IMG/VR virus record: IMGVR_UViG_3300007760_000015
Span: 1-58,531 of that record
Strand: one strand, 5' to 3'
From: a virus
DNA: 58,531 nucleotides
Of the stretch, positions 9,616 through 26,092 are shown in pieces. Position numbers and translations under genes: made by a program. The notes beneath the pieces were generated by a model. It did no database searches. It saw only the letters and a list, made by a program, of their open reading frames with translations, and had not been told where the DNA came from. Numbering within the stretch: position 1 is the first letter of the stretch; the number at the start of each line of letters is the position of its first letter.

Positions 9616-10320
9616 ATGAAGGTTTTAGATAAAGGTTTTATAGAGGTTATAGATACATTAGGAAATGATCTAACAGTTGTAAATTCAGCAAGAGTATCAT
9701 TCGGTAATAGAAAAGAAAAGTGGGATGTGAGTGATGAAAAACTTGTTAGATATTTAGCAAAGAACAAACATTTCAGTCCATTTAGGCATTTACAAGTTCA
9801 ATTCCACATTAAGGCCCCGGAGGTAGTTCTCCGCCAACTCTTTAAACATTTGGTGGGAATAGAATCCACATCACATTATGCAACCAAAGATATGCCATTC
9901 AATGAAATATCTGGTAGATACACAAAGGTTACTGAATTTTATATTCCAGAAGTTTGGAGGGCACAATCAGACGATAATAAACAAGCAAGTGATGGTGAAT
10001 TAGATGACTTACAACAGAAACGAATGAATCAGATATACAGAGAATTTTTAAGTAATGTAGAACGGACTTATGATTCAATGTTAGATACAGGAATGGCAAG
10101 AGAGCAAGCGAGAATAATAATGCCACTTTCACAATATACTGAAGTGTATTGGACCATGTCGTTTCAATCTATTGCAAATTTTATAGAACTACGAGATCAT
10201 GACCACGCCCAATGGGAAATTAGGGAATACGCAAAAGTGATGAAAGAGATGATGATGGATATTTACCCAGAAACAATGAAAATTTGGTCAGAAGTATATT
10301 GGGATGATAATAGAGGATAG
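9616..10320 (+). CDS. thyX: Flavin-dependent thymidylate synthase ThyX
   Basis: A 234-residue ThyX, making dTMP from dUMP with FAD, NADPH and methylene-tetrahydrofolate. Signature parts are ARVSFGNR near the N-terminus, FNEISGRY (ThyX motif tail), and the C-terminal ARIIMPLSQYTEVYWTMSFQ then ELRDHDHAQWEIREYA. In the usual motif RHR is followed closely by S..E.SxRY; here the first part reads RQLFKH, and about 15 residues separate it from NEISGRY, so the motif is stretched and its first Arg-His is altered. SD GAGG at 9602-9605. It supplies thymidine nucleotides together with the ribonucleotide reductase at 21296. Confidence 0.9.
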   Translation: MKVLDKGFIEVIDTLGNDLTVVNSARVSFGNRKEKWDVSDEKLVRYLAKNKHFSPFRHLQVQFHIKAPEVVLRQLFKHLVGIESTSHYATKDMPFNEISGRYTKVTEFYIPEVWRAQSDDNKQASDGELDDLQQKRMNQIYREFLSNVERTYDSMLDTGMAREQARIIMPLSQYTEVYWTMSFQSIANFIELRDHDHAQWEIREYAKVMKEMMMDIYPETMKIWSEVYWDDNRG

Positions 10321-10339
10321 AAAGTCTTGGAGAAACTTT

Positions 10340-11587
10340 ATGATAGAGTTTGAAGAAAATGACTCTATCGTAATTCCAATCCAATGTGATGATAATAAAC
10401 ATCCGTGGGAAACTGAATTATGTGTATTGTATGTACAGTTTCTTAACGGTGTAGAATATGTTTTACCCTTTAGACATTCAGATGCGCTGAATCTAAATTC
10501 TAAATACATTCCATTAACACAAACTCCAAAGAATACTTATGTGTATGATAAGAAGAAATTACTACATTTTTTTAAGTGGGATAATGTATTTGATGTTCAG
10601 TTAAGTCATTATATGAAAACGAATGAGCCGCTGATAATAGAAGATTTAATAACATCCGCACATGAACATTTTTATAGAGATTACTATGATATTCCAAATA
10701 TAAATTGCGTAATTCCATTGATGAAACATATAGAATGGTGTAGGGAATTGGTCAAAATATTAAAAAGTGCGTCAGATACGGATAAAGATAATAAATCGTA
10801 TAATGTGTATAACAATGATGTATTAGAGAACTTAAATTATATAGAATCAAGTGGGTTACAAACAACAGATGGTATGGTATATTCAGAATACAATCCATAC
10901 ACTTTAACTGGACGACCATCTAATAGATTCGGTGGTATTAACTTTGCCGCTCTTAATAAGAAAGATGGAAGTCGTGAGAAGTTCGTAAGTAGGTTTGGTA
11001 AAGATGGAATGTTAGTGGAGATGGATTATGATGCTTACCATCCATCTATAATTGCAGATATAGTAGGATATAAATTTGATGGTGATGTATATGTACAATT
11101 AGGGAAATATTATGGTACTGCTAGAGAAGAAAGTAAAATTTTAACCTTTCAATATTTGTATGGTCATATACCCGATGATGTATTGAGAGTTATTCCATTT
11201 TTTGTTAGTGTGGATAATTATATAAATGACATGTGGCGTGAATATAATCACAATGGTTATACTGAAACAGCTCTTTTTAAAAGGAAAATATATAAACAAA
11301 ATTTAACAAATATGAATAAGAATAAATTATTTAATTATTTTTTACAGTCAGCAGAATTTGAGTATAGTGTTACAACCATGACTAAGTTACGTGAGTTTAT
11401 TGGCTCGGGTAACTGTAAAAGTAAATTTATATTATATACATACGATTCTTTTTTATTTGATATGCACTTATCTGATGGCAAGGATTTTATTTTAACCATT
11501 AAAGATATATTAGAGGATGAGAAGTTTAAAGTTAAAGTAAAATATGGATTCAACTATCATAATATGAGTGATTTTATTAAAATATGA
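10340..11587 (+). CDS. Divergent family A-like DNA polymerase, no obvious exonuclease motifs
   Basis: A 415-residue protein. ATG 10340 is chosen over 10304 because GGAG at 10329-10332 is ideally spaced. Visible motifs: a TGRPSNRFGGINFAALNK segment like the TGR...NLQNIP region of Pol I; motif A-like VEMDYDAYHPSIIADI; motif B REESKILTFQYLYG, which fits Rx3Kx7YG exactly; and motif C-like LYTYDSFLFD in place of the usual HDE. The N-terminal ~180 residues sit where the 3'-5' exonuclease would be but lack its acidic motifs. It is much shorter than Pol I (about 600-900). It probably synthesises DNA in repair or replication beside the split family B polymerase. Motif A reads partly like family B (YPSII). 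Family call is moderate to good. Confidence 0.65.
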   Translation: MIEFEENDSIVIPIQCDDNKHPWETELCVLYVQFLNGVEYVLPFRHSDALNLNSKYIPLTQTPKNTYVYDKKKLLHFFKWDNVFDVQLSHYMKTNEPLIIEDLITSAHEHFYRDYYDIPNINCVIPLMKHIEWCRELVKILKSASDTDKDNKSYNVYNNDVLENLNYIESSGLQTTDGMVYSEYNPYTLTGRPSNRFGGINFAALNKKDGSREKFVSRFGKDGMLVEMDYDAYHPSIIADIVGYKFDGDVYVQLGKYYGTAREESKILTFQYLYGHIPDDVLRVIPFFVSVDNYINDMWREYNHNGYTETALFKRKIYKQNLTNMNKNKLFNYFLQSAEFEYSVTTMTKLREFIGSGNCKSKFILYTYDSFLFDMHLSDGKDFILTIKDILEDEKFKVKVKYGFNYHNMSDFIKI

Positions 11588-11632
11588 TACTTATCAATAG
11601 ATGGAATCTGAAAATAATATGGAAATAAAGTG

Positions 11633-12550
11633 ATGAAAAATGTAGAATATTATGTATATATATTAAAAAACAGTGAAACTGACAATCCTTTTTATGTTGG
11701 GAAGGGCAATGGTAGTAGAATGTATTATCATGAAAATACTGTTAAAACTGGTAAAGAGTTAAAGAATAAACATCTATATTATAAAATAGTAAAAATTTTA
11801 GAATCTGGATATAAAATTAAATATGAAATATTATATAAAACAACTGATGAAGAACTCGCGTATAAAGTGGAAGAGAAGAAAATTGAAGAACTGGGAATCG
11901 ATAATTTATGTAATTTAACTTATGGTGGTAATGGATGTAGGTCAACAGATGAAATTAGAAAAAAACAATCCATCGCAATGACAAATAGGCATAAAAATGA
12001 TGTTAATATTGTTAACGGGCTGAAGAATTATATGAAGAATATTACTGGTAAAACTTATGATGAAATACATGGTAGTAATAAGGCTAAACTTATAAAGGAT
12101 AAACAATCATTAAAAAAGAAGGGTAAAACTTATGAAGAAATGTATGGTGTTGACGTTGCTAAAAAAGTTAAATTGCAACATTCAAAGTCAATGACCGGCA
12201 GAATATTGTCTGATGAAACTAAGAAAAAAATAAGTATTGCTAATACTGGAAATTTACCGACTACCGGGTTTACCAATAGGACTCATTCTAAAGAAACTAA
12301 GGAGTTGTTAAGAAAAAGATTTATGAATTCCAATAATCATAATTTTAGAAAATATATTATTGAATCTCCACAAAGTGATATTTATGAATTTAATGGACAG
12401 TATGAAATTGTTAATTTTTTTGATAAATATAATGATGATAATAATTTAGCAGGAAACCGTAGAGTCAGTCCACATAATTTAATTAGAAAGAAAAAAAATA
12501 AGGGGTGGAGAGTGATAGATTCTTACAGACCTTATTATATAGATAAATAA
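11633..12550 (+). CDS. GIY-YIG homing endonuclease with NUMOD3-type repeats
   Basis: A 305-residue protein. The N-terminal nuclease domain shows YYVYILKN (GIY equivalent) and FYVGKG (YIG equivalent). Then come DNA-binding repeats of NUMOD3 type, for example SDETKKKISIANTGN and HSKETKELLRKRF. Repeated KxYEEMYG/KTYDEIHG segments with lysine-rich spacers lie in between. Such free-standing enzymes (Seg family of T4) cut recipient phage DNA and copy themselves into it. It is inserted between the family A-like polymerase and the 686-residue gene, 42 nt after the former, and is a candidate source of homing events elsewhere in the genome. GTG at 11630 precedes the ATG; ATG is preferred. Confidence 0.85.
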   Translation: MKNVEYYVYILKNSETDNPFYVGKGNGSRMYYHENTVKTGKELKNKHLYYKIVKILESGYKIKYEILYKTTDEELAYKVEEKKIEELGIDNLCNLTYGGNGCRSTDEIRKKQSIAMTNRHKNDVNIVNGLKNYMKNITGKTYDEIHGSNKAKLIKDKQSLKKKGKTYEEMYGVDVAKKVKLQHSKSMTGRILSDETKKKISIANTGNLPTTGFTNRTHSKETKELLRKRFMNSNNHNFRKYIIESPQSDIYEFNGQYEIVNFFDKYNDDNNLAGNRRVSPHNLIRKKKNKGWRVIDSYRPYYIDK

Positions 12551-12596: not shown

Positions 12597-14657
12597 ATGA
12601 TTACAGACATTAAAAAGATATTAGTAGAGTGGGCTTATCGTACTAATGATGGTAAACCTAATCCAAAGAGTATGGGACATCAAATTTTATTAGATGAAGT
12701 TTTAAAAGATTTTGGGTGGAATTTAGAACAGAGATCTGAATTAATGAATAATTTGATGGAACAGCCATCGGATAGAGAAAAATTGATGAAGAAGGTTATT
12801 AAGTATAAAAATGATGATGGTGAAGATAAAGAGATAACAGTTGGTGGTGCATTAAAGCAGGGTGAAGAACATCCGGCTTATGATAAAGCAAAACAAATTA
12901 CGGATACAGGTGATGATAAACAACAATCCAAAGGATTAGAACCAGATGATTTTGAAAGATTTTCAGATAAGAATAAACCAGATGAAAAAGAAAAAGGAGA
13001 TGAACAACCAAAAGATGATGAAGAAGGTGAGGGAATAAAATCTGGAGAGCCAAATCAAAAAGATAAATCTCTAAAGGATGTAAACACATCCGAATCAGAA
13101 GTATATTCTAATCCTGATACTGGTATTTCGGATGAAGAGTTTTCAGAAAAAGGTATAGAATCAAATTTTGAAAATGAAGAAGATGAATTACAAGAATCTG
13201 CATTAGATGAATATTTTGCAAGTGGTAAGATACCAAAAAAATATCAAAAAGTAATCACTCGATTAATGAACTCAAAACTCGGTAAACAAAGTATTACAGA
13301 TTATATGACAGGAGTAGGTGCCGGTAAAATACAATCTCAGGCAGGTGAAATACTTACGATGGCAAGTGTTGGAATGAATGATGAAGAATTTGATGGTTTT
13401 ATGGAAACATTGAATAAACAAGTTGGTAAGTATCCAAAAGGTAGTAAACCGGTTGTGACAAAAGATTGGTTAGAATCAGTAAAACATGTAAGAACTGTTA
13501 CTATGAAAAGATATAATTCAGAGTTTGGTAAAGGTAATTGGAGTATTAGTAATAGTGCATGGGATGTACAGAATGAGTTTGAAGCATTAGGTAATGATGA
13601 TTATAATGCAAACAAAGGATTTTCATCTGATATGTATGTTAAGTTAGAAGTAAATGGTGAACCTGTATTAGATGAAATATCACTTAAAAAAGATTCAACA
13701 GCTAATATATACAACGGAGTTGTTACTGATATAAATAATTGGTCTGATAAAGTACCACCACAGGCAGATATAAAAGAATATAAAAAAGGTGAGATACAAA
13801 GACCTATTGAATATGGAACTAAAGCAAAAACATTAAAATATACCTCAGATGATTTGCTTAACGAAAATGTAATCAAAAATAAAAATTTGAAAATAACACT
13901 TGCATCATTAGGAGTAATTAAAGGTGATGCTAAAAAAGGATATACTATAGACTCAAAAGCACAAGAAATATTAGACGAATTATCATCTATGGAAATTCCA
14001 CCACCAATAGATAGAGCTAGATTTAAAGAAGTTATGGGTACAGGCGACACGACTAGATTTAAAAAGTATATGATTATGCATGCTGCAGTACAAAGAGCAA
14101 ATGAAATTGCAAATGGTAATGATGGGGAATCAGAGGCAAGTAAATTTTTAAATAATCATTTGGGTTATGAAAAAGGTGAAGACGGAAAGTTTCCTAAAGG
14201 TTCAATAAAAAGATATGAGAATGATACTATACAATTTTTAGTTGAAGATGAAGAAGCTAAAGAGGGGTGTTTAAATGCATTAGCAGAAAAGTTACCTATG
14301 AAATCTTTATTAGAGGGTGAAGAAAAAATGGCAATAGGTGGATTATCCGCAGATCCTAAAACATTAAAAAGAATGTTTGGTATAGATAATTATGATGACT
14401 TTAAAGCTGGATTAACTATGAAAGATGATGATTTAGGTCAAAATTACTTGGTCTATCGTTCACAAAAACCAGCTAAAGAAGTTTCCATAGCAGAAGTTCA
14501 AGTAAGACAAAAAGGAAAAGGTTACGCGTCAAGTGTTGGTTTAGAGTTCGCTATTGCAACAGATTTTGCAAAAGAGTTGTATGATGCTAATAAAGAGGAA
14601 TATCCACCTGAACCAGAAATAAGTTCCAAAGAACGAAATAAGCTAGGAGTTGGTTAA
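12597..14657 (+). CDS. Large protein of unknown function, possible structural or nuclease-fold protein
   Basis: A 686-residue protein starting MITDIKKILVEWAYRTNDGK. Residues about 75-200 are a highly charged, low-complexity linker rich in D, E, K and Q. The central part has a KGFSSDMYVKLEVNGE ... LDEISLKKDS segment; the D...ExSxKK arrangement with flanking beta strands resembles a PD-(D/E)xK nuclease core, but this is only a motif by eye. The end has VSIAEVQVRQKGKGYASSVG. Proteins with a similar N-terminus occur in marine T4-like phages as putative virion proteins, from memory. A TATAAATA element lies directly upstream, which fits late expression. Confidence 0.55.
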   Translation: MITDIKKILVEWAYRTNDGKPNPKSMGHQILLDEVLKDFGWNLEQRSELMNNLMEQPSDREKLMKKVIKYKNDDGEDKEITVGGALKQGEEHPAYDKAKQITDTGDDKQQSKGLEPDDFERFSDKNKPDEKEKGDEQPKDDEEGEGIKSGEPNQKDKSLKDVNTSESEVYSNPDTGISDEEFSEKGIESNFENEEDELQESALDEYFASGKIPKKYQKVITRLMNSKLGKQSITDYMTGVGAGKIQSQAGEILTMASVGMNDEEFDGFMETLNKQVGKYPKGSKPVVTKDWLESVKHVRTVTMKRYNSEFGKGNWSISNSAWDVQNEFEALGNDDYNANKGFSSDMYVKLEVNGEPVLDEISLKKDSTANIYNGVVTDINNWSDKVPPQADIKEYKKGEIQRPIEYGTKAKTLKYTSDDLLNENVIKNKNLKITLASLGVIKGDAKKGYTIDSKAQEILDELSSMEIPPPIDRARFKEVMGTGDTTRFKKYMIMHAAVQRANEIANGNDGESEASKFLNNHLGYEKGEDGKFPKGSIKRYENDTIQFLVEDEEAKEGCLNALAEKLPMKSLLEGEEKMAIGGLSADPKTLKRMFGIDNYDDFKAGLTMKDDDLGQNYLVYRSQKPAKEVSIAEVQVRQKGKGYASSVGLEFAIATDFAKELYDANKEEYPPEPEISSKERNKLGVG

Positions 14658-15070
14658 TGAAATCACAACTTCTCTGCACTTTCACTGCTAAACATCAACT
14701 TGATGATATTTTTGAACTCATTATAGAATGTAACGATATTCTATACAATAAGATATATGTATTCCAAAATCTTAATGATTCATCACAATTAATTTGTACA
14801 TATAATATTGAATACGATGAAGAAAATTATATGGAAAATATTCCAAATACTATTTCATTGCACCGTAAGAAACAAAGTAATACATTATATACTATAAATG
14901 CTCTTAATGAGGTAATTAGGTCATTAAATAATGGGGTATTAGATAAAAGGTTTCCAGTACCTTGGGAAGAATATCAAAATAGTTTATTGCTTACCAATGA
15001 TATGGGACTTAATAAAATACCAACAAAAATACACAGTATCGTGGATACAAAAAAATCTGAAAAAGAGTAA
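14657..15070 (+). CDS. Conserved hypothetical protein upstream of gp32
   Basis: A 137-residue protein, MKSQLLCTFTAKHQLDDIFE, with a YNKIYVFQNLNDSSQL segment and RKKQSNTLYTINALNEVI. It overlaps the preceding gene by one base (TAATGA), so it is coupled to it. I recall similar short proteins in marine T4-like phages without known function. There is no enzymatic motif. Confidence 0.6.
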   Translation: MKSQLLCTFTAKHQLDDIFELIIECNDILYNKIYVFQNLNDSSQLICTYNIEYDEENYMENIPNTISLHRKKQSNTLYTINALNEVIRSLNNGVLDKRFPVPWEEYQNSLLLTNDMGLNKIPTKIHSIVDTKKSEKE

Positions 15071-15175: not shown

Positions 15176-15931
15176 ATGGATATTAATTCGATTCGTAAGC
15201 GTCTTAACCAACTTCAGACAACAAATAACAGAACTTCAAACTTATGGAAACCACAGCCTGGTAAACAGGTAATTCGTGTGTTACCATATAAACATAATAA
15301 GGACAATCCTTTCATTGAATTGTTCTTCCATTTTGGTTTGAATAATAAAACATATCTTTCACCAATTACATTTGGTCGCCCCGACCCGATTGAAGAGTTT
15401 GCACAAAAACTTAAAACAAGCGGAAATCGTGAGGAATATCAGATGGCTCGTAAATTGGAAGCAAAAATGAGAACCTTTGCTCCAGTTATCGTTCGTGGTG
15501 AAGAAACTCAAGGAGTTCGTTTCTGGGGATTTGGTAAAACTGTTTATCAAGAATTACTCGGTGTAATTGCCGACCCAGATTATGGTGATATTACAGACGC
15601 TGTTAGTGGTCGTGATGTTTCCGTAGAATTCATTACTGCTGAAGAAAGTGGTGCTTCATTTCCAAAGACGAATGTTCGTGTGAAACCTAATCAAACACCT
15701 ATCGTGGAGGATAAAGCTCAAATGGAAGCTCTCTTGGAAAATCAAAAAGATATTACTGAATTATATCAGGAACTATCCTATGATGAATTAACCGGCGTTC
15801 TAAACGAATGGTTAAACCCAGATGGTGAAGCAGAAACAACTGAAAAGGAAACCGCTCCAACTTCAGTTGTTGCTAGTGAAACAAAAGTAGAAGATGCCAG
15901 TGCGGCATTTGATGACTTATTTAATAAGTAA
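15176..15931 (+). CDS. 32: Single-stranded DNA-binding protein, gp32-like
   Basis: A 251-residue protein with MDINSIRKRLNQLQ at the N-terminus (basic, like the cooperativity region of gp32), an OB-fold core including FIELFFHFGLNNKTYLSP and GVRFWGFGKTVYQELL, and an acidic, serine/threonine-rich tail ending AAFDDLFNK, the typical partner-binding tip of phage SSBs. The whole sequence contains no cysteine, so the zinc site of T4 gp32 (three Cys and one His) is absent. It is followed by the UvsX-like recombinase. SD CAGGAG is well spaced. Confidence 0.85.
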   Translation: MDINSIRKRLNQLQTTNNRTSNLWKPQPGKQVIRVLPYKHNKDNPFIELFFHFGLNNKTYLSPITFGRPDPIEEFAQKLKTSGNREEYQMARKLEAKMRTFAPVIVRGEETQGVRFWGFGKTVYQELLGVIADPDYGDITDAVSGRDVSVEFITAEESGASFPKTNVRVKPNQTPIVEDKAQMEALLENQKDITELYQELSYDELTGVLNEWLNPDGEAETTEKETAPTSVVASETKVEDASAAFDDLFNK

Positions 15932-16043: not shown

Positions 16044-17141
16044 ATGTCGATACAAGACGACTTGGCTAACACATTAGCCACTTCCTTGAATAAGAAATTT
16101 AAGGATTACAAAGTCGCCCACTTCTTGGGTGGCGCAAACGCAACGCCAACAGATATTAAAGAATTTATTTCAACTGGATCAACAATGTTAGATTTGGCAA
16201 TTTCTAATAGACCAGATGGTGGAATCGCAGTAGGTAGAATCACAGAATTAAATGGACTTGAAAGTAGTGGGAAATCATTAGTTGGTGCACACCTACTTGC
16301 TGAAACTCAAAAGAAGGGTGGAGTTGCTGTTTATATAGATACTGAAACTGCTGTAAGTGAGGATTTCTTAGAGGTGATTGGAGTGGATATAAGTAATATG
16401 TTATATTTACATTTAGAAACTACAGAAGATATATTTGAAGCCATTGAAGAAATCATAACGAAAGTTAGGGAATCAGATAAAGATAGATTAGTAACTATAT
16501 TAGTTGATTCACTGGCGGCTGCTTCTACCAAGGTGGAATTAAATGCTGACTTTGATAAAGATGGTTGGGCTACAAGTAAGGCAATCATCATTTCTAAAGC
16601 TATGAGAAAGATTACTCAAATGATTGGTAGGCAGAGGGTTGCTCTTGTATTTACTAATCAATTAAGAGTAAAATTAGGAGCTATGTTTGGAGATCCATAT
16701 ACTACTTCAGGCGGTAAGGCTCTTCCATTTCACGCTTCAACTCGTATTAGATTAAAGAATAAAGGTCAAATTAAAGATAAGAAAAAGAATGTAATTGGTA
16801 TGACCATTTTGGCTCAAGTTGTTAAAAATAGATTGGGTCCACCTTTGAGGAAAGCAGAGTTTCCATTATACTTTGAGAGTGGTGTAGATGATGATGGCAG
16901 CTGGTTAGTAGTAATGAAAGAGCATGGTATAGTAAAAACCAGCGGCGCTTGGTATTCTATGACAGACCACAATGGTGATGAAGTTAAGTTCCAGTCGAAG
17001 GAATGGGCTGATAAATTAAAAGATGAAGATTTTAAAGCTCATTGTTATAAACTAATTTGTGATAAAGTGATATTGAAGTATGAAAAGGCTGACTTGGGTA
17101 TAGATGATGTAATCCAAACTGATGAGGTTTTGGGTGACTAA
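16044..17141 (+). CDS. uvsX: RecA/UvsX-family recombinase
   Basis: A 365-residue strand-exchange ATPase. Walker A GLESSGKS (near residue 75), VYIDTETAV, Walker B-like VTILVDSLAAAS and a RecA-type loop FTNQLRVKLGAMFGDPYTTSGG-like region (shown in parts: LRVKLGAMFGD, TTSGGKALPFH). In T4-like phages UvsX drives recombination-dependent replication and acts on gp32-coated ssDNA, fitting its place right after the gp32-like gene. SD TTAGGAG is strong. The next gene starts inside its last codons. Confidence 0.9.
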   Translation: MSIQDDLANTLATSLNKKFKDYKVAHFLGGANATPTDIKEFISTGSTMLDLAISNRPDGGIAVGRITELNGLESSGKSLVGAHLLAETQKKGGVAVYIDTETAVSEDFLEVIGVDISNMLYLHLETTEDIFEAIEEIITKVRESDKDRLVTILVDSLAAASTKVELNADFDKDGWATSKAIIISKAMRKITQMIGRQRVALVFTNQLRVKLGAMFGDPYTTSGGKALPFHASTRIRLKNKGQIKDKKKNVIGMTILAQVVKNRLGPPLRKAEFPLYFESGVDDDGSWLVVMKEHGIVKTSGAWYSMTDHNGDEVKFQSKEWADKLKDEDFKAHCYKLICDKVILKYEKADLGIDDVIQTDEVLGD

Positions 17142-18174
17142 TGAAAGATATTTATCTATACTTAATGAGATTACTAAGAATGGTGGTCAGATAGAAGATA
17201 GTGAACCTGATGATAAGGTATTGATAATAGATGGACTAAACACCTTTATAAGATCGTTTAGTATCGTACCAACTCTCAATGATGACGGCGCTCACGTTGG
17301 GGGAATAGTTGGTTTTCTAAGATCAATCGGTTATGCTATCAAAACAATAAGACCCACCCGATGTATTATTACATTTGATGGAAAGGGTGGGTCTGACCGC
17401 CGGAAGAAAATATTTCCAGAGTATAAGGCTGGTCGTAAAATGTCCAAAAGATTAAATCGGGCATACGATTTCAATTCGAGAGATGATGAAAAACACTCGA
17501 TGATTTCTCAATTAACGAGAGTCATTGATTATTTGGATTATCTTCCTGTAACTACAATTACGATTGAAAGTATAGAGGCTGATGATACGATGGCTTACAT
17601 CACAAAACAACTTCTTACCACATCTAAAGTGGTACTAATGTCTACGGATAAAGATTTTCTACAACTTGTAAATTCAAGAGTTTCAGTATGGTCTCCCACT
17701 AAAAAGAAGTTATATGGTGCACCAGAAGTATTAGAAGATTACGGAATACCATCACATAACTTTGCAGTATATAGGGCTATCGACGGAGATAAATCTGATA
17801 ATATAGATGGTGTCCGTGGTTGGGGATTAAAAACAATACAAAAAAAATTACCACTTTTACTCGAAGATAAGATACTTACTATTGATGACATTATTGAAGA
17901 AGATGAAAAGTTAAAAGAGAGTGAAGAATTATTAAAAAGAAATTACTCATTAATGCAATTAGATGAAGTAGATATTAGTGCTTCTGCTAAAACTAAGATA
18001 ATGGATAAAGTAAGAGAACCAATAAACAAATTAAACAAAATGCAGTTTCAGAAAAGATTTATAGAAGATAGGTTGTTTGCATCACTTCCAAATATGGATA
18101 GCTGGATGGTACAATGTTTTACAAAACTCAATCAAATGGCGGAAAAAACGCATGGGTCGTCAAACGAAATATAA
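17122..18174 (+). CDS. rnh: RNase H / 5'-3' exonuclease (FEN1-like, T4 rnh type)
   Basis: A 350-residue PIN/FEN-family nuclease that removes RNA primers and flaps. Acidic motifs are visible: VLIIDGLNTFIRS (D1), CIITFDGKGGSDRR, then IESIEADDTMAY and MSTDKDFLQLV, and the helix-hairpin-helix IDGDKSDNIDGVRGWG. The domain begins near residue 32, so the first ~30 residues are extra; GTG 17134 is an alternative start. It overlaps the recombinase by 20 nt. Length and motifs are close to T4 RNase H (305 residues). Confidence 0.85.
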   Translation: MRFWVTNERYLSILNEITKNGGQIEDSEPDDKVLIIDGLNTFIRSFSIVPTLNDDGAHVGGIVGFLRSIGYAIKTIRPTRCIITFDGKGGSDRRKKIFPEYKAGRKMSKRLNRAYDFNSRDDEKHSMISQLTRVIDYLDYLPVTTITIESIEADDTMAYITKQLLTTSKVVLMSTDKDFLQLVNSRVSVWSPTKKKLYGAPEVLEDYGIPSHNFAVYRAIDGDKSDNIDGVRGWGLKTIQKKLPLLLEDKILTIDDIIEEDEKLKESEELLKRNYSLMQLDEVDISASAKTKIMDKVREPINKLNKMQFQKRFIEDRLFASLPNMDSWMVQCFTKLNQMAEKTHGSSNEI

Positions 18175-18331
18175 CTCAAAAGAAGAAAAGAAGATAGCCC
18201 AGAGAAAATGGTCTATGGAATACTATTATAGAAACAGAGCAGTATTACAAGCAAAGGCTCGTGAAAGATACAGAAGAAAAAAGATGATGGAATTAAAGGA
18301 AAAGCAAAGAAAAGAGTTATATGGTGAGTGA
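18152..18331 (+). CDS. Small, very basic protein between RNase H and helicase genes
   Basis: A 59-residue protein starting MGRQTKYNSKEEKKIAQRKW, with about 40 % Lys/Arg and a long predicted helix. ATG 18152 is preferred to the upstream ATG because it lies next to the RNase H stop and the longer form would lie wholly inside RNase H. It overlaps RNase H by 23 nt and the helicase by 11 nt, so it is part of a tightly packed replication operon. A nucleic-acid-binding role is likely but not shown; helicase-loader function (gp59) cannot be claimed from sequence. Confidence 0.55.
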   Translation: MGRQTKYNSKEEKKIAQRKWSMEYYYRNRAVLQAKARERYRRKKMMELKEKQRKELYGE

Positions 18332-19679
18332 AAATTTCAACTCTTTTGGTCCGACGTTCCAGGCAAAGATAATATCATCATTATTATCAGATAATAAATT
18401 TATACAAACTATTAGTGATATATTAGAGCCACAATACTTTGATTCTGATGCTAATGCCTGGTTAGTTAAACAGATAAGCGAATACTTCATAGAGTTTAGA
18501 AAAGCTCCTACACTTGAAGTATTGAAGATTAAAATTACTCAATTAGAAAATGAGATTCTAAAAGTGTCTGTTATAGAAAATCTTAAAGATGCTTGGAGAA
18601 ACATCGAAGCTACTGATTTAGAATTCGTAAAGCAGGAAACGTTAGGATTCTGTAAGAACCAGGTACTTAAAGGCGCTATCGTAGATGCTGTAGATTTACT
18701 TGAACAGAAAAAGTATGATGAGATAAAAGTTATTATTGATAATGCTATGAAAGCTGGCAGTGAAAGAGATTTGGGTCATGATTACATCATATCATTAGAA
18801 GATAGGCTTACTGGTTCGGTAAGAGAAACATTGGGAACTCCGTGGGATGCTGTGAATGGGGTAATGGATGGTGGATTGGCTGGTGGAGAATTAGGAGTAT
18901 TAGTCGCGCCTGCTGGAATTGGTAAGACATGGGCATTACAATCATTAGGTGCGCATGCTGTAAAATGTGGAAAAACAGTAGTACATTATACATTGGAATT
19001 GAACGCAAATTATGTTGGGTTAAGATACGATACAGTATTTAGTGGAATTACTACATCGAATATAAAATTTTATCAAGATGACGTTCAATCAGTAATTGAT
19101 AAACTTACAGGCAAATTAATTATTAAGTATTATCCAACTCGGTCTGCTACTGTAAATACAATAGCGGCTCACTTAAAACAGATGGAATTGCAAGAGATTA
19201 AGCCTGATATAGTAATAGTGGATTATGCTGATATTCTGAAACCTACTGCGTTCTATAAAGAGAAGAGGCATGCAACTGGAGAAACGTATGAGAATTTACG
19301 TGGTGTTGCAGGAGAATTCGATATTCCAATTTGGACTGCTAGCCAAGCAAACAGATCCAGCTTGGAGGAAGAAGTAATTGATGCAAGCAAAGTTGCTGAA
19401 GATTATTCCAAAGTAATGACGGCAGATTTTGTAATGAGTATAAGTCGTAAGGTAGAAGATAAGATAGCTAACACGGGCAGATTTCATGTCATTAAAAATA
19501 GATTTGGAATTGATGGAATTACATTTCCTGCGAGTATTAATACAAATACAGGGTTAATACAAGTACATGATGCTTCAACTGTTGATGGGAAGGACGCTCA
19601 AGGAAAAATGGATAATTCAGAAGAATATTTAAGAAAAACTTTGTCGAAAAAGTATAATGATATGGGAGGATTTGAATAA
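18321..19679 (+). CDS. 41: Replicative DNA helicase, DnaB/gp41-like
   Basis: A 452-residue RecA-fold helicase that unwinds at the fork, hexameric in the family. Walker A APAGIGKT near residue 198, ELNANYVGLRYDTVFSG after it, Walker B IVIVDYADIL, and SQANRSS (H3/H4 region with arginine). The N-terminal ~150 residues are the helical DnaB-type N-domain (NFNSFGPTFQAKIISSLLSD). There is no intein. The start overlaps the small basic gene and the stop abuts the methyltransferase. Confidence 0.9.
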   Translation: MVSENFNSFGPTFQAKIISSLLSDNKFIQTISDILEPQYFDSDANAWLVKQISEYFIEFRKAPTLEVLKIKITQLENEILKVSVIENLKDAWRNIEATDLEFVKQETLGFCKNQVLKGAIVDAVDLLEQKKYDEIKVIIDNAMKAGSERDLGHDYIISLEDRLTGSVRETLGTPWDAVNGVMDGGLAGGELGVLVAPAGIGKTWALQSLGAHAVKCGKTVVHYTLELNANYVGLRYDTVFSGITTSNIKFYQDDVQSVIDKLTGKLIIKYYPTRSATVNTIAAHLKQMELQEIKPDIVIVDYADILKPTAFYKEKRHATGETYENLRGVAGEFDIPIWTASQANRSSLEEEVIDASKVAEDYSKVMTADFVMSISRKVEDKIANTGRFHVIKNRFGIDGITFPASINTNTGLIQVHDASTVDGKDAQGKMDNSEEYLRKTLSKKYNDMGGFE

Positions 19680-23387: not shown

Positions 23388-25163
23388 ATTTATCAGAATT
23401 TATATTATGATCAAAGAAACCGGAAAGTCCATATATGGGATGATGAAAATGGGTATTTCACTATGCCTTATAAACGGTATGCTTATGTAAAGGATAGAAG
23501 TGGAACTCATGTATCTTTATATGGTGATAAATTAAAGAAGGTATTTAGATATGAGCCAGACACACCTAATTTATTTGAATCTGATGTACCACCTGAAACT
23601 CGTGTATTAGTAGATCAATATAAAGATTCAGATGATATGTCCACCGGTCATAGAATTATGACTATTGATATTGAGGTGGAAGTTACAGATGGGTTTCCAG
23701 AACCAAAGCAAGCAAAAGATAGAATAACGTCAATCGCTGTGTACAATTCAGCTGACGATACATATTACGCATTTGCATTAGATGAGGATAAAAGATTGAC
23801 TCTTGAGTCAAAAGGTAACGTTGTAATTGAATCTTTTGATGATGAGTACTCTTTATTGCAGAGATTCCTTGTTAAGTATATGGAATTTAAACCCACAATT
23901 ATTACTGGGTGGAATATAGATACATTTGATATGCCGTACTTGTACAATAGAATGAGTAAAGTTGTAGGTAGTAATATAGCAGATGTCCTTTCACCCATAA
24001 GAGAAGTTAAATGGAATAAGCACAGAAAAAGATACTTGTTTGGTGGAGTAAGTTGTTTAGATTATTATGCATTATACAGATTATTTACTTACACTCAATT
24101 ATCATCTTACAGATTGGATGCTGTTGCTGAGCATGAGTTAAGTGAGAATAAACTTGAATACGAAGGTACGCTTACAGATTTATATGAAAAGGATTTAAAT
24201 AGATATGTGGAATATAATATTCATGATGTTAGACTTGTAAAACGATTAAATGATAAATTAGATTTTATTGACATGGCACGTGGTGTATGTCATGTTGGTC
24301 ATGTTCCTTATGAAGATGTATTTTTCTCATCAAGATATTTAGAAGGTGCTATTTTAACATATCTAAAAAAGATGGGAATTGTTGCACCAAATAAACCACC
24401 TCGGCCAGAAAAAATGAGTGATGATAAGTTTATAGGGGCGTATGTAAAACACCCACAGAAAGGGAAGCACGATTGGGTATTTGATTTGGATTTAGTGAGT
24501 TTATATCCCAGCATTATACGGAGTTTGAATATAAGCCCTGAAACAAAGATAGGTAAGTTAAGTGGTTGGGATGCAGAGGAATTTATTAAAGGAGTGAAGA
24601 AAACATACACTCTAACATCAAATGATAAAGAAATAGGGAAGCTTACTGAAACAGAACTAAAAGATTTCTTTGATAAAAATAAAGTTTCAATATCTTCTAA
24701 TGGTGTATTATATAGAAGTGATAAACAGGGACTAATTCCTGCTTTATTATCTAAATGGTTTGATACTCGAGTAGAGTATAGGAAACTGATGAAGAAGTTT
24801 GGTGATGCCGGTGATAATGAAAAATATACATACTTTAAGAGTCGTCAGTTAATTCAGAAAGTGGTGCTTAATTCAATGTATGGTTGTTTGGGCTTAAAGA
24901 GTTGGCGATTTTATGATCTCGATAACGCAACTGCGACTACAATTACTGGTCAGGAACTTATTAAATTTACATCAAAAATGGCTAGTTATAAATATAATTC
25001 TATATTAGGTTATCCGATTGAAATTGAACTGGAAAATGGTGATGTTAAAAAGTTATATGAGAACTCTATGGTATATGTAATTAGAAATCATAAAAAAATA
25101 AAAGTATTAGTAAAAGATATAATTAAATCGGATGATTTTTTATATGAAGTATATTTTAAGTAA
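23388..25163 (+). CDS. 43: Family B DNA polymerase, N-terminal fragment (gp43A-like), apparent AUU start
   Basis: 591 residues. The frame encodes polymerase-like sequence (YYDQRNRKVHIWDDENGYF) upstream of the first ATG (23463) and has no ATG, GTG or TTG there; AGAGGTG at 23376-23382 is spaced for ATT 23388 (I/M-YQNLYYD). Exonuclease motifs: TIDIEVE, TGWNIDTFDMPYL, EYNIHDVRLV. Polymerase motif A DLVSLYPSII and motif B KVVLNSMYG follow. The native sequence runs to about KYNSILG and then continues as a ~50-residue Hint/intein-like tail (IELENGDVKKLYEN, YVIRNHKKIKVLVKD, SDDFLYE) before TAA. Motif C and the thumb are in the next fragment. Both pieces must associate to form the enzyme. Confidence 0.85.
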   Translation: MYQNLYYDQRNRKVHIWDDENGYFTMPYKRYAYVKDRSGTHVSLYGDKLKKVFRYEPDTPNLFESDVPPETRVLVDQYKDSDDMSTGHRIMTIDIEVEVTDGFPEPKQAKDRITSIAVYNSADDTYYAFALDEDKRLTLESKGNVVIESFDDEYSLLQRFLVKYMEFKPTIITGWNIDTFDMPYLYNRMSKVVGSNIADVLSPIREVKWNKHRKRYLFGGVSCLDYYALYRLFTYTQLSSYRLDAVAEHELSENKLEYEGTLTDLYEKDLNRYVEYNIHDVRLVKRLNDKLDFIDMARGVCHVGHVPYEDVFFSSRYLEGAILTYLKKMGIVAPNKPPRPEKMSDDKFIGAYVKHPQKGKHDWVFDLDLVSLYPSIIRSLNISPETKIGKLSGWDAEEFIKGVKKTYTLTSNDKEIGKLTETELKDFFDKNKVSISSNGVLYRSDKQGLIPALLSKWFDTRVEYRKLMKKFGDAGDNEKYTYFKSRQLIQKVVLNSMYGCLGLKSWRFYDLDNATATTITGQELIKFTSKMASYKYNSILGYPIEIELENGDVKKLYENSMVYVIRNHKKIKVLVKDIIKSDDFLYEVYFK

Positions 25164-25181
25164 CATAACAGAGATAATAAA

Positions 25182-26092
25182 ATGAAAATTAAAAGTATAA
25201 GGAGGCTGCCCAACGTCGATGTGGATCATGTGATCTACATCGATACTTAACTGATTCAATCTTCATGACTGCACTCCCAATAATTAAAAAGAGATTCCCT
25301 ACAATGGACTTCGATAGTGAAACTTTAATGAGTAAAAGAATATTGGATGTGGCTGATGAAATGCAGACATTTTTAAATAGTTCTTATGATTATTTCGCAA
25401 AGAATTTTCTTAATTTAGATAACCATAGATTTGAGATTAAACAGGAGCTGATTGCAAAGTCGGGATTGTTTATTGTAAAGAAAAGATATGGGATGAAAAT
25501 TATTAACGATAATGGAGTAAAAGTAAATAAGCTTCATGTTAAAGGATTAGATTTAGTTAGAAGTAATTTTCCAAAAGCTATGGGTGAATTATTGAAAAAT
25601 GTATTAGAAGATATATTAGCAACAGTACCTAAAGATAAAATAGATGAAAGAATTATTAACTTTAAGGAATCAATGAAGTTAGTTGATTTTGATAGAATTT
25701 CAATGCCGACTGGAGTAAAGGGGCTGGAGAAATACTCAGCCGGTAAGAAAGGAAACTTTACAGAGTTTGCTAAGGGATCTCCAGCGCACGTGAAAGCTGC
25801 TATCACTTACAATGATTTATTGAAGCATTATGGGCTTACAGGTAAATACCAATTAATATCTGAATCGGAAAAGATTAAATGGGTTTATTTAAAACAGAAT
25901 GAGCTCGGATTAGTATCGTGTGGGTACAAAGGATATGAAGACCCACCTGAAATTATTAACTTCATTAAAAAGAATTTGGACTATAAGAAGATGTATAGTC
26001 AAATGTTGGAAAAGAAAATCTTATTGTTTTACGAAACATTGAAGTGGGGGCAGCCAGTAAATAAAAAGGCTTCCATTGAAAGATTTTTTTGA
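25182..26092 (+). CDS. 43: Family B DNA polymerase, C-terminal fragment (gp43B-like), read through a 5-nt ribosome hop
   Basis: Proposed join 25182-25247 plus 25253-26092, 301 residues. The first 22 codons (MKIKSIRRLPNVDVDHVIYI then DT) end at stop TAA 25248; the rest, in another frame, begins T-DSIFMTALPIIKK. The codon ACT before the stop recurs at 25250; joining them gives YIDTDSIF, the catalytic motif C with both aspartates. Without the join the second ORF would start at ATG 25265, have no ribosome site and lack motif C. The rest has the thumb signature KKRYG and ends KASIERFF, a PIP-like clamp-binding tail. An indel error is the main alternative. Confidence 0.7.
25199..25205 (+). promoter_or_regulatory. 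Internal AAGGAGG before the polymerase hop hairpin
   Basis: A perfect Shine-Dalgarno-like heptamer inside the short reading frame, 9 nt before the hairpin. It has no productive start codon of its own: the ATG at 25219 gives four codons only. If the hairpin is folded, the heptamer lies 14 nt from the landing ACT. A matching AAGGAGG lies at 33571. It could tether the ribosome during bypass. Confidence 0.5.
25215..25252 (+). promoter_or_regulatory. Hairpin and ACT-TA-ACT hop site in the polymerase gene
   Basis: The stem pairs 25215-25227 with 25232-25244 (13 bp, two G-U, loop ATGT) and its 3' arm encodes VIYID of motif C. Take-off ACT 25245-25247 directly follows the stem; stop TAA is 25248-25250; landing ACT is 25250-25252. 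Matched take-off and landing codons with an immediate stop are the features of the T4 gene 60 bypass. There is no T-run, so it is not a terminator. Confidence 0.6.

Follow-up and report, generated by a model that had tools for sequence, protein, structure and literature searches.

A family A-type polymerase of the divPolA1 class, encoded in the replication operon of a phage with a family B polymerase

The divPolA1 locus and its neighbourhood

The window, i.e. the complete 58,531-nt stretch of viral DNA analysed here (IMG/VR record IMGVR_UViG_3300007760_000015), encodes a small polymerase of the divPolA1 class together with a set of replication genes:

9616..10320, + strand: thyX-like thymidylate synthase, upstream of divPolA1
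10304..11587, + strand: divPolA1-type polymerase gene, 427 aa (open reading frame, homology, model)
11630..12550, + strand: free-standing GIY-YIG/NUMOD3 homing endonuclease, directly 3' of divPolA1
14657..15070, + strand: 137-aa protein, candidate partner of divPolA1 (co-occurrence)
15176..15931, + strand: gp32-type single-strand DNA-binding protein
16044..17141, + strand: UvsX recombinase
17122..18174, + strand: 5'-3' exonuclease (Pfam 5_3_exonuc_N, E 1e-30)
18321..19679, + strand: DnaB-like replicative helicase
23463..26092, + strand: family B polymerase gp43 in two open reading frames, interrupted at motif C (DTDS)

The divPolA1 reading frame begins at 10304, where it overlaps the 3' end of thyX by 17 nt; the start at 10340 given by the first-pass annotation lies 36 nt too late. 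The motifs noted there (REESKILTFQYLYG, TGRPSN...NFAAL, DYDAYHPSII and TYDSF) are all found in this frame. In relatives, the upstream side consists of tail genes, a 220-aa gene and often thyX, followed by divPolA1; on its 3' side lie a variable large gene, the 137-aa gene, gp32, UvsX, the 5'-3' exonuclease and the helicase. The same replication core is retained in Flavobacterium phage immuto and in Microcystis phage Mel-JY01. The large gene of the window (12597-14657), located between divPolA1 and the 137-aa gene, encodes a 686-aa protein of unassigned function that is strongly variable among relatives and has no match in the phage collection. Two further observations concern immuto, which carries genes for queuosine/7-deazaguanine DNA modification alongside divPolA1, as well as a second, full-length PolA near GroEL/GroES (L092:24855-27188, corresponding to MW353176.1 37854-40187).

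The polymerase gp43 is also encoded in 9 of the 12 large contigs with divPolA1, that is, in all nine that extend far enough; in the remaining three, divPolA1 is located within about 2.2 kb of the contig end. Mel-JY01 likewise has a PolB. Immuto has no family B polymerase and instead a family A polymerase of 778 aa. divPolA1 therefore accompanies a regular polymerase, and the earlier description of a short, proofreading-dead family A-type polymerase beside a family B gp43 is supported.

We note that gp43 of the window is itself unusual. Its first reading frame, 566 aa long, runs out into a foreign tail (YPIEIELENGD...EVYFK), and stops together with a 5-nt offset disrupt motif C (GATACT-TAACT-GATTCA), whereas gp43 of relatives is intact with 831-855 aa. 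The identical interruption sequence is present in two other contigs, which argues against an assembly error. Searches of the interruption yielded no Rfam intron match and no Pfam intein domain; a split intein, an intron or a bypass are possible. A strong inverted repeat at 25215-25252, GTCGATGTGGATCA-TG-TGATCTACATCGATAC, is located just before the ACT-TAA-CT-GAT site and is preceded by the ribosome-binding-like sequence AAGGAGG. The triplet ACT occurs again 5 nt on, which resembles translational bypassing and may be a coincidence.

Family assignment, fold and active site

The window protein is a family A-type polymerase of the divPolA1 class, and its relation to family A is well beyond chance. 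The Pfam family DNA_pol_A matches residues 300-413 (E 2e-7) with 30.5 bits, slightly below the curated cut-off of 34.3 bits. PHROGs assigns the label 'DNA polymerase', and immuto QQO91919.1, annotated as 'DNA polymerase family A', is 30% identical over 92% of the length (E 2e-48). With the single protein as query, a search of PDB sequences gave no match; a search with its profile returned weak matches to Pol I, and a profile comparison with Pol I aligned residues 189-425 with a probability of 97%. The AlphaFold2 model, built from an alignment of 43 sequences, has a pLDDT of 89 and a pTM of 0.86. Its best match among solved structures (Foldseek) is the Klenow fragment (E 5e-20, TM 0.80), in an alignment that covers nearly the entire model and the entire target; the structural matches listed for the model are DNA polymerases only. 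The median omega between relatives is 0.09, hence the gene is retained for a function.

The elements recognised within the protein, all encoded on the + strand, are:

10304..10771, +: degenerate 3'-5' exonuclease-like domain, residues 1-156 (alignment, model, Foldseek to Klenow)
10907..10924, +: template-contact hairpin TGRPSN, R204 corresponding to R668 of Pol I
11024..11053, +: motif A, DYDAYHPSII, D241 corresponding to D705; PSI private to the window lineage
11042..11584, +: less conserved 3' part, residues 247-427, a possible converted tract
11123..11164, +: motif B (O-helix), REESKILTFQYLYG, with K278 (K758), F282 (F762) and Y286-G287 (Y766-G767)
11318..11371, +: helix with N344 and Q348 (N845 and Q849 of Pol I)
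11435..11452, +: motif C, YTYDSF, D381 corresponding to D882

Polymerases are usually described as a hand consisting of thumb, palm and fingers. The palm of the window protein, whose absence would have spoken against a polymerase, is present in the model and lies within the Klenow match, and both metal-binding aspartates are kept: D241 and D381 align with D705 and D882 and do not vary among 9 diverse and 43 close members. Together with R204, K278, F282, Y286, G287 and Q348 they are also invariant across four distant phage lineages, in line with the earlier assignment of TGRPSN to the template-contact region of Pol I. Two departures from Pol I are likewise invariant. H246 occupies the position of the steric gate E710 throughout the family, and the HDE of Pol I motif C, already reported as missing, is replaced by YDS or YDA in the entire family.

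The N-terminal region retains an exonuclease-like domain, as the full-span Foldseek match to Klenow indicates. The earlier statement that exonuclease motifs are lacking thus holds for the catalytic residues and not for the domain. Aligned by eye, D355, E357, D424 and D501 of Pol I pair with P25, Q27, L86 and L139; the acidic metal-binding residues are not conserved in divPolA1, and the aligned N-terminal region (replacements again read by eye) is without the DxE motif. The thumb is missing: divPolA1 has about 17 residues between the pre-thumb helix and TGR where E. coli Pol I has 122, which leaves about 105 thumb residues absent, and helices of four residues or longer do not occur in the model between 184 and 245. 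Superfamily A polymerases are characterised by palm aspartates, a template-contact Arg hairpin, an RxxxK/YG fingers helix and a coiled-coil thumb (Iyer et al. 2008, PMC2579912). The palm aspartates, the R204 hairpin and the overall fold are all present in the window protein, whereas the two-helix coiled-coil thumb is absent. Within the fingers helix, K278, F282, Y286 and G287 are invariant, and the Arg of RxxxK is found in the window protein, with Tyr in its relatives.

The last difference also bears on the proposal of a hybrid between families A and B, which had been based on the YPSII-like motif A. All 42 aligned relatives in the 43-sequence alignment read DYDAYHLRLI, a normal family A-like form without the PSI of the family B motif A (DxxSLYPSI). 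HPSII is confined to the window lineage, and the Pfam family DNA_pol_B (PF00136) does not match the window protein; the hybrid reading is therefore rejected. The exact fit of motif B to Rx3Kx7YG is correct for the window protein and does not extend to the family, in which the Arg position is occupied by Tyr in 88 of 91 sequences and by Arg in three, all of the window lineage. The hybrid impression thus arises from changes specific to this lineage.

Distribution, the linked 137-aa gene and the history of the window copy

Among 50,697 phage genome records, only six contain a full-length match (at least 80% of the length), namely a 484-kb uncultured phage, four Flavobacterium immuto records and Microcystis phage Mel-JY01. 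In IMG/VR, relatives are encoded on at least 118 stretches (169 when the C-terminal half is searched instead), and the number of marine viral stretches encoding divPolA1 exceeds 160. One scan of 84,980 bacterial species genomes returned no relatives. Many T4-like marine phages accordingly encode an additional polymerase, probably for gap filling, which is missing from nearly all sequenced isolates.

The occurrence of the 137-aa protein follows that of divPolA1. In the same 50,697 records it matches exactly the six that contain divPolA1. Its gene lies 3' of divPolA1 in 59 of 59 loci that extend 3.5 kb or more on the downstream side; these loci stem from two overlapping scans and hence represent fewer distinct contigs. 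Conversely, wherever at least 3.5 kb is available upstream of the 137-aa gene (28 loci), divPolA1 is found there. Between distant phages the 137-aa protein is 39-51% identical, compared to about 30% for divPolA1, and its family comprises at least 594 IMG/VR stretches. The predicted model has a pLDDT of 90; the protein has no Pfam family and no PHROG family, and a comparison of the model with PDB folds gave no match (best E 0.07). Common descent within a single phage clade may account for the linkage.

The two parts of the window copy differ in their conservation. Residues 1-246 are conserved as in other members (86 vs 87%, best block), whereas residues 247-427 fall about 30 points below relatives, the drop being abrupt at motif A. 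The window copy breaks 14 otherwise invariant positions, all past residue 246, compared to at most 8 in other members; changes private to it are HPSII in motif A, the Arg of motif B and a Tyr for His at 263. The GC content is 25.6% in the 3' part vs 31.2% in the 5' part. In a tree of the N-terminal half the window copy is placed inside a 99/99 clade; in the tree of the C-terminal half it is found on a long branch outside that clade. A homing endonuclease adjoins divPolA1 in the window lineage only, and its GC content is similarly low, which suggests that the 3' half may have been converted, by co-conversion during homing. We propose this as a hypothesis, since fast evolution of one branch under a single history survives an AU test (p 0.33), a search for a donor of the 3' half found none, and GC also varies among divPolA1 relatives.

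Predicted role and comparison with known systems

As alignments and model show, divPolA1 comprises palm and fingers together with an inactivated exonuclease domain, and the thumb is absent. We consider it moderately probable that the protein is a minimal family A polymerase that fills gaps without proofreading. The neighbourhood of gp32, UvsX, 5'-3' exonuclease and helicase points first to this role as the most likely one. The 5'-3' exonuclease of the operon and a non-proofreading polymerase resemble the two useful halves of Pol I, which makes the filling of gaps that primer removal and recombination leave behind the most economical role; operon position alone cannot separate it from other replication roles. 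The enzyme would be active and distributive and would fill short gaps as Okazaki fragments mature and in recombination-dependent replication or repair; the nuclease half of such a split 'Pol I' would come from the separate exonuclease. The His at the E710 position and YDS/YDA in place of HDE are invariant departures that may count against the predicted activity. A thumbless enzyme may bind DNA poorly, and because the thumb is missing divPolA1 would need a partner that keeps it on DNA, which could be the 137-aa protein, gp32 or a sliding clamp. The 137-aa protein is the best candidate for this stabilising function. A stronger version, in which divPolA1 is a two-piece enzyme whose thumb or processivity factor is supplied in trans by the 137-aa protein, is conceivable and in our view doubtful; with the always-linked protein named, such a two-protein model is directly testable.

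The same loss of thumb and proofreading, the altered active-site residues and the presence of UvsX in the neighbourhood would also suit a translesion, damage-tolerant or modified-base polymerase that is used when gp43 stalls. We regard this as unlikely: divPolA1 is located in the core replication operon and not in a variable region, it is under strong constraint, as its low median omega attests, and damage-specific features were not found in it. A role at the centre of replication, in which divPolA1 is the main replicative enzyme for one strand while gp43 serves the other strand or another task, would agree with the statement of Yutin et al. (PMC11348598) that its gene neighbourhood is better conserved than the one around the regular polymerase, and with the persistence of divPolA1 while the regular polymerase varies between the PolA of immuto and the PolB of Mel-JY01. 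The enzyme is, however, without proofreading and without thumb, and gp43 or a full PolA is present except in five fragment contigs, which leaves this role quite improbable.

The substitutions E710 to His and HDE to YDS or YDA in all relatives remove the steric gate and a glutamate, and would fit a maker of RNA or a template-free nucleotide adder, similar to a primase or RNA polymerase; the D-S-F of motif C presumably recalls T7 RNA polymerase. Such an activity appears very unlikely, as the residues that DNA polymerases have at F762 and Y766 are retained, His remains a bulky side chain, and only DNA polymerases are among the listed structural matches. Hardly to be expected is a catalytically dead structural part of the replisome or virion. 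The loss of thumb and proofreading and a gene position after tail and baseplate genes are compatible with it, but the metal-binding aspartates, K278, Y286 and Q348 are invariant in distant lineages.

For the gap-filling polymerase favoured here, several known systems provide a comparison. PolX of African swine fever virus is a thumbless viral DNA polymerase that fills gaps (PMC5330486); its family X fold is unrelated, and it serves as a precedent for thumbless gap filling by analogy only. E. coli Pol I (Klenow) has its exonuclease, palm and fingers in the same order and with the same fold as the window protein, and shares with it the catalytic aspartates, the K, F and YG of the O-helix, and N845 and Q849. 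In contrast to Pol I, the window protein lacks the thumb and the 3'-5' exonuclease residues and has H for E710 and YDS for HDE. divPolA2 of barbaviruses is, like divPolA1, a divergent PolA that occurs in addition to a PolB and has no normal thumb; it is set apart by its description, with its own N-terminal globular domain and a variable neighbourhood (PMC11348598).

The closest system is divPolA1 itself. Yutin et al. (2024, Virol J 21:200, PMC11348598) described it from 14 genomes, 155-190 kb in size, interpreted its palm, thumb and exonuclease as is done here, and suggested that it acts in replication; in the literature searched, the name occurs only in this paper and its preprint. The kind of polymerase is therefore not new. 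With immuto QQO91919.1 the window protein shares full-length homology, a truncated thumb and an inactivated exonuclease, and with the class its status as an extra to the regular polymerase and the replication genes downstream. The window copy differs from the published members by its private changes, its divergent 3' half and the adjoining homing endonuclease. New here are the abundance of divPolA1 in marine phages (more than 160 marine stretches, plus a phage of 484 kb, compared to the 14 genomes of the published set), the linked 137-aa gene and the odd history of the window copy. A thumbless class that is abundant in the sea and strongly selected raises the question of how a polymerase grips DNA without a thumb.
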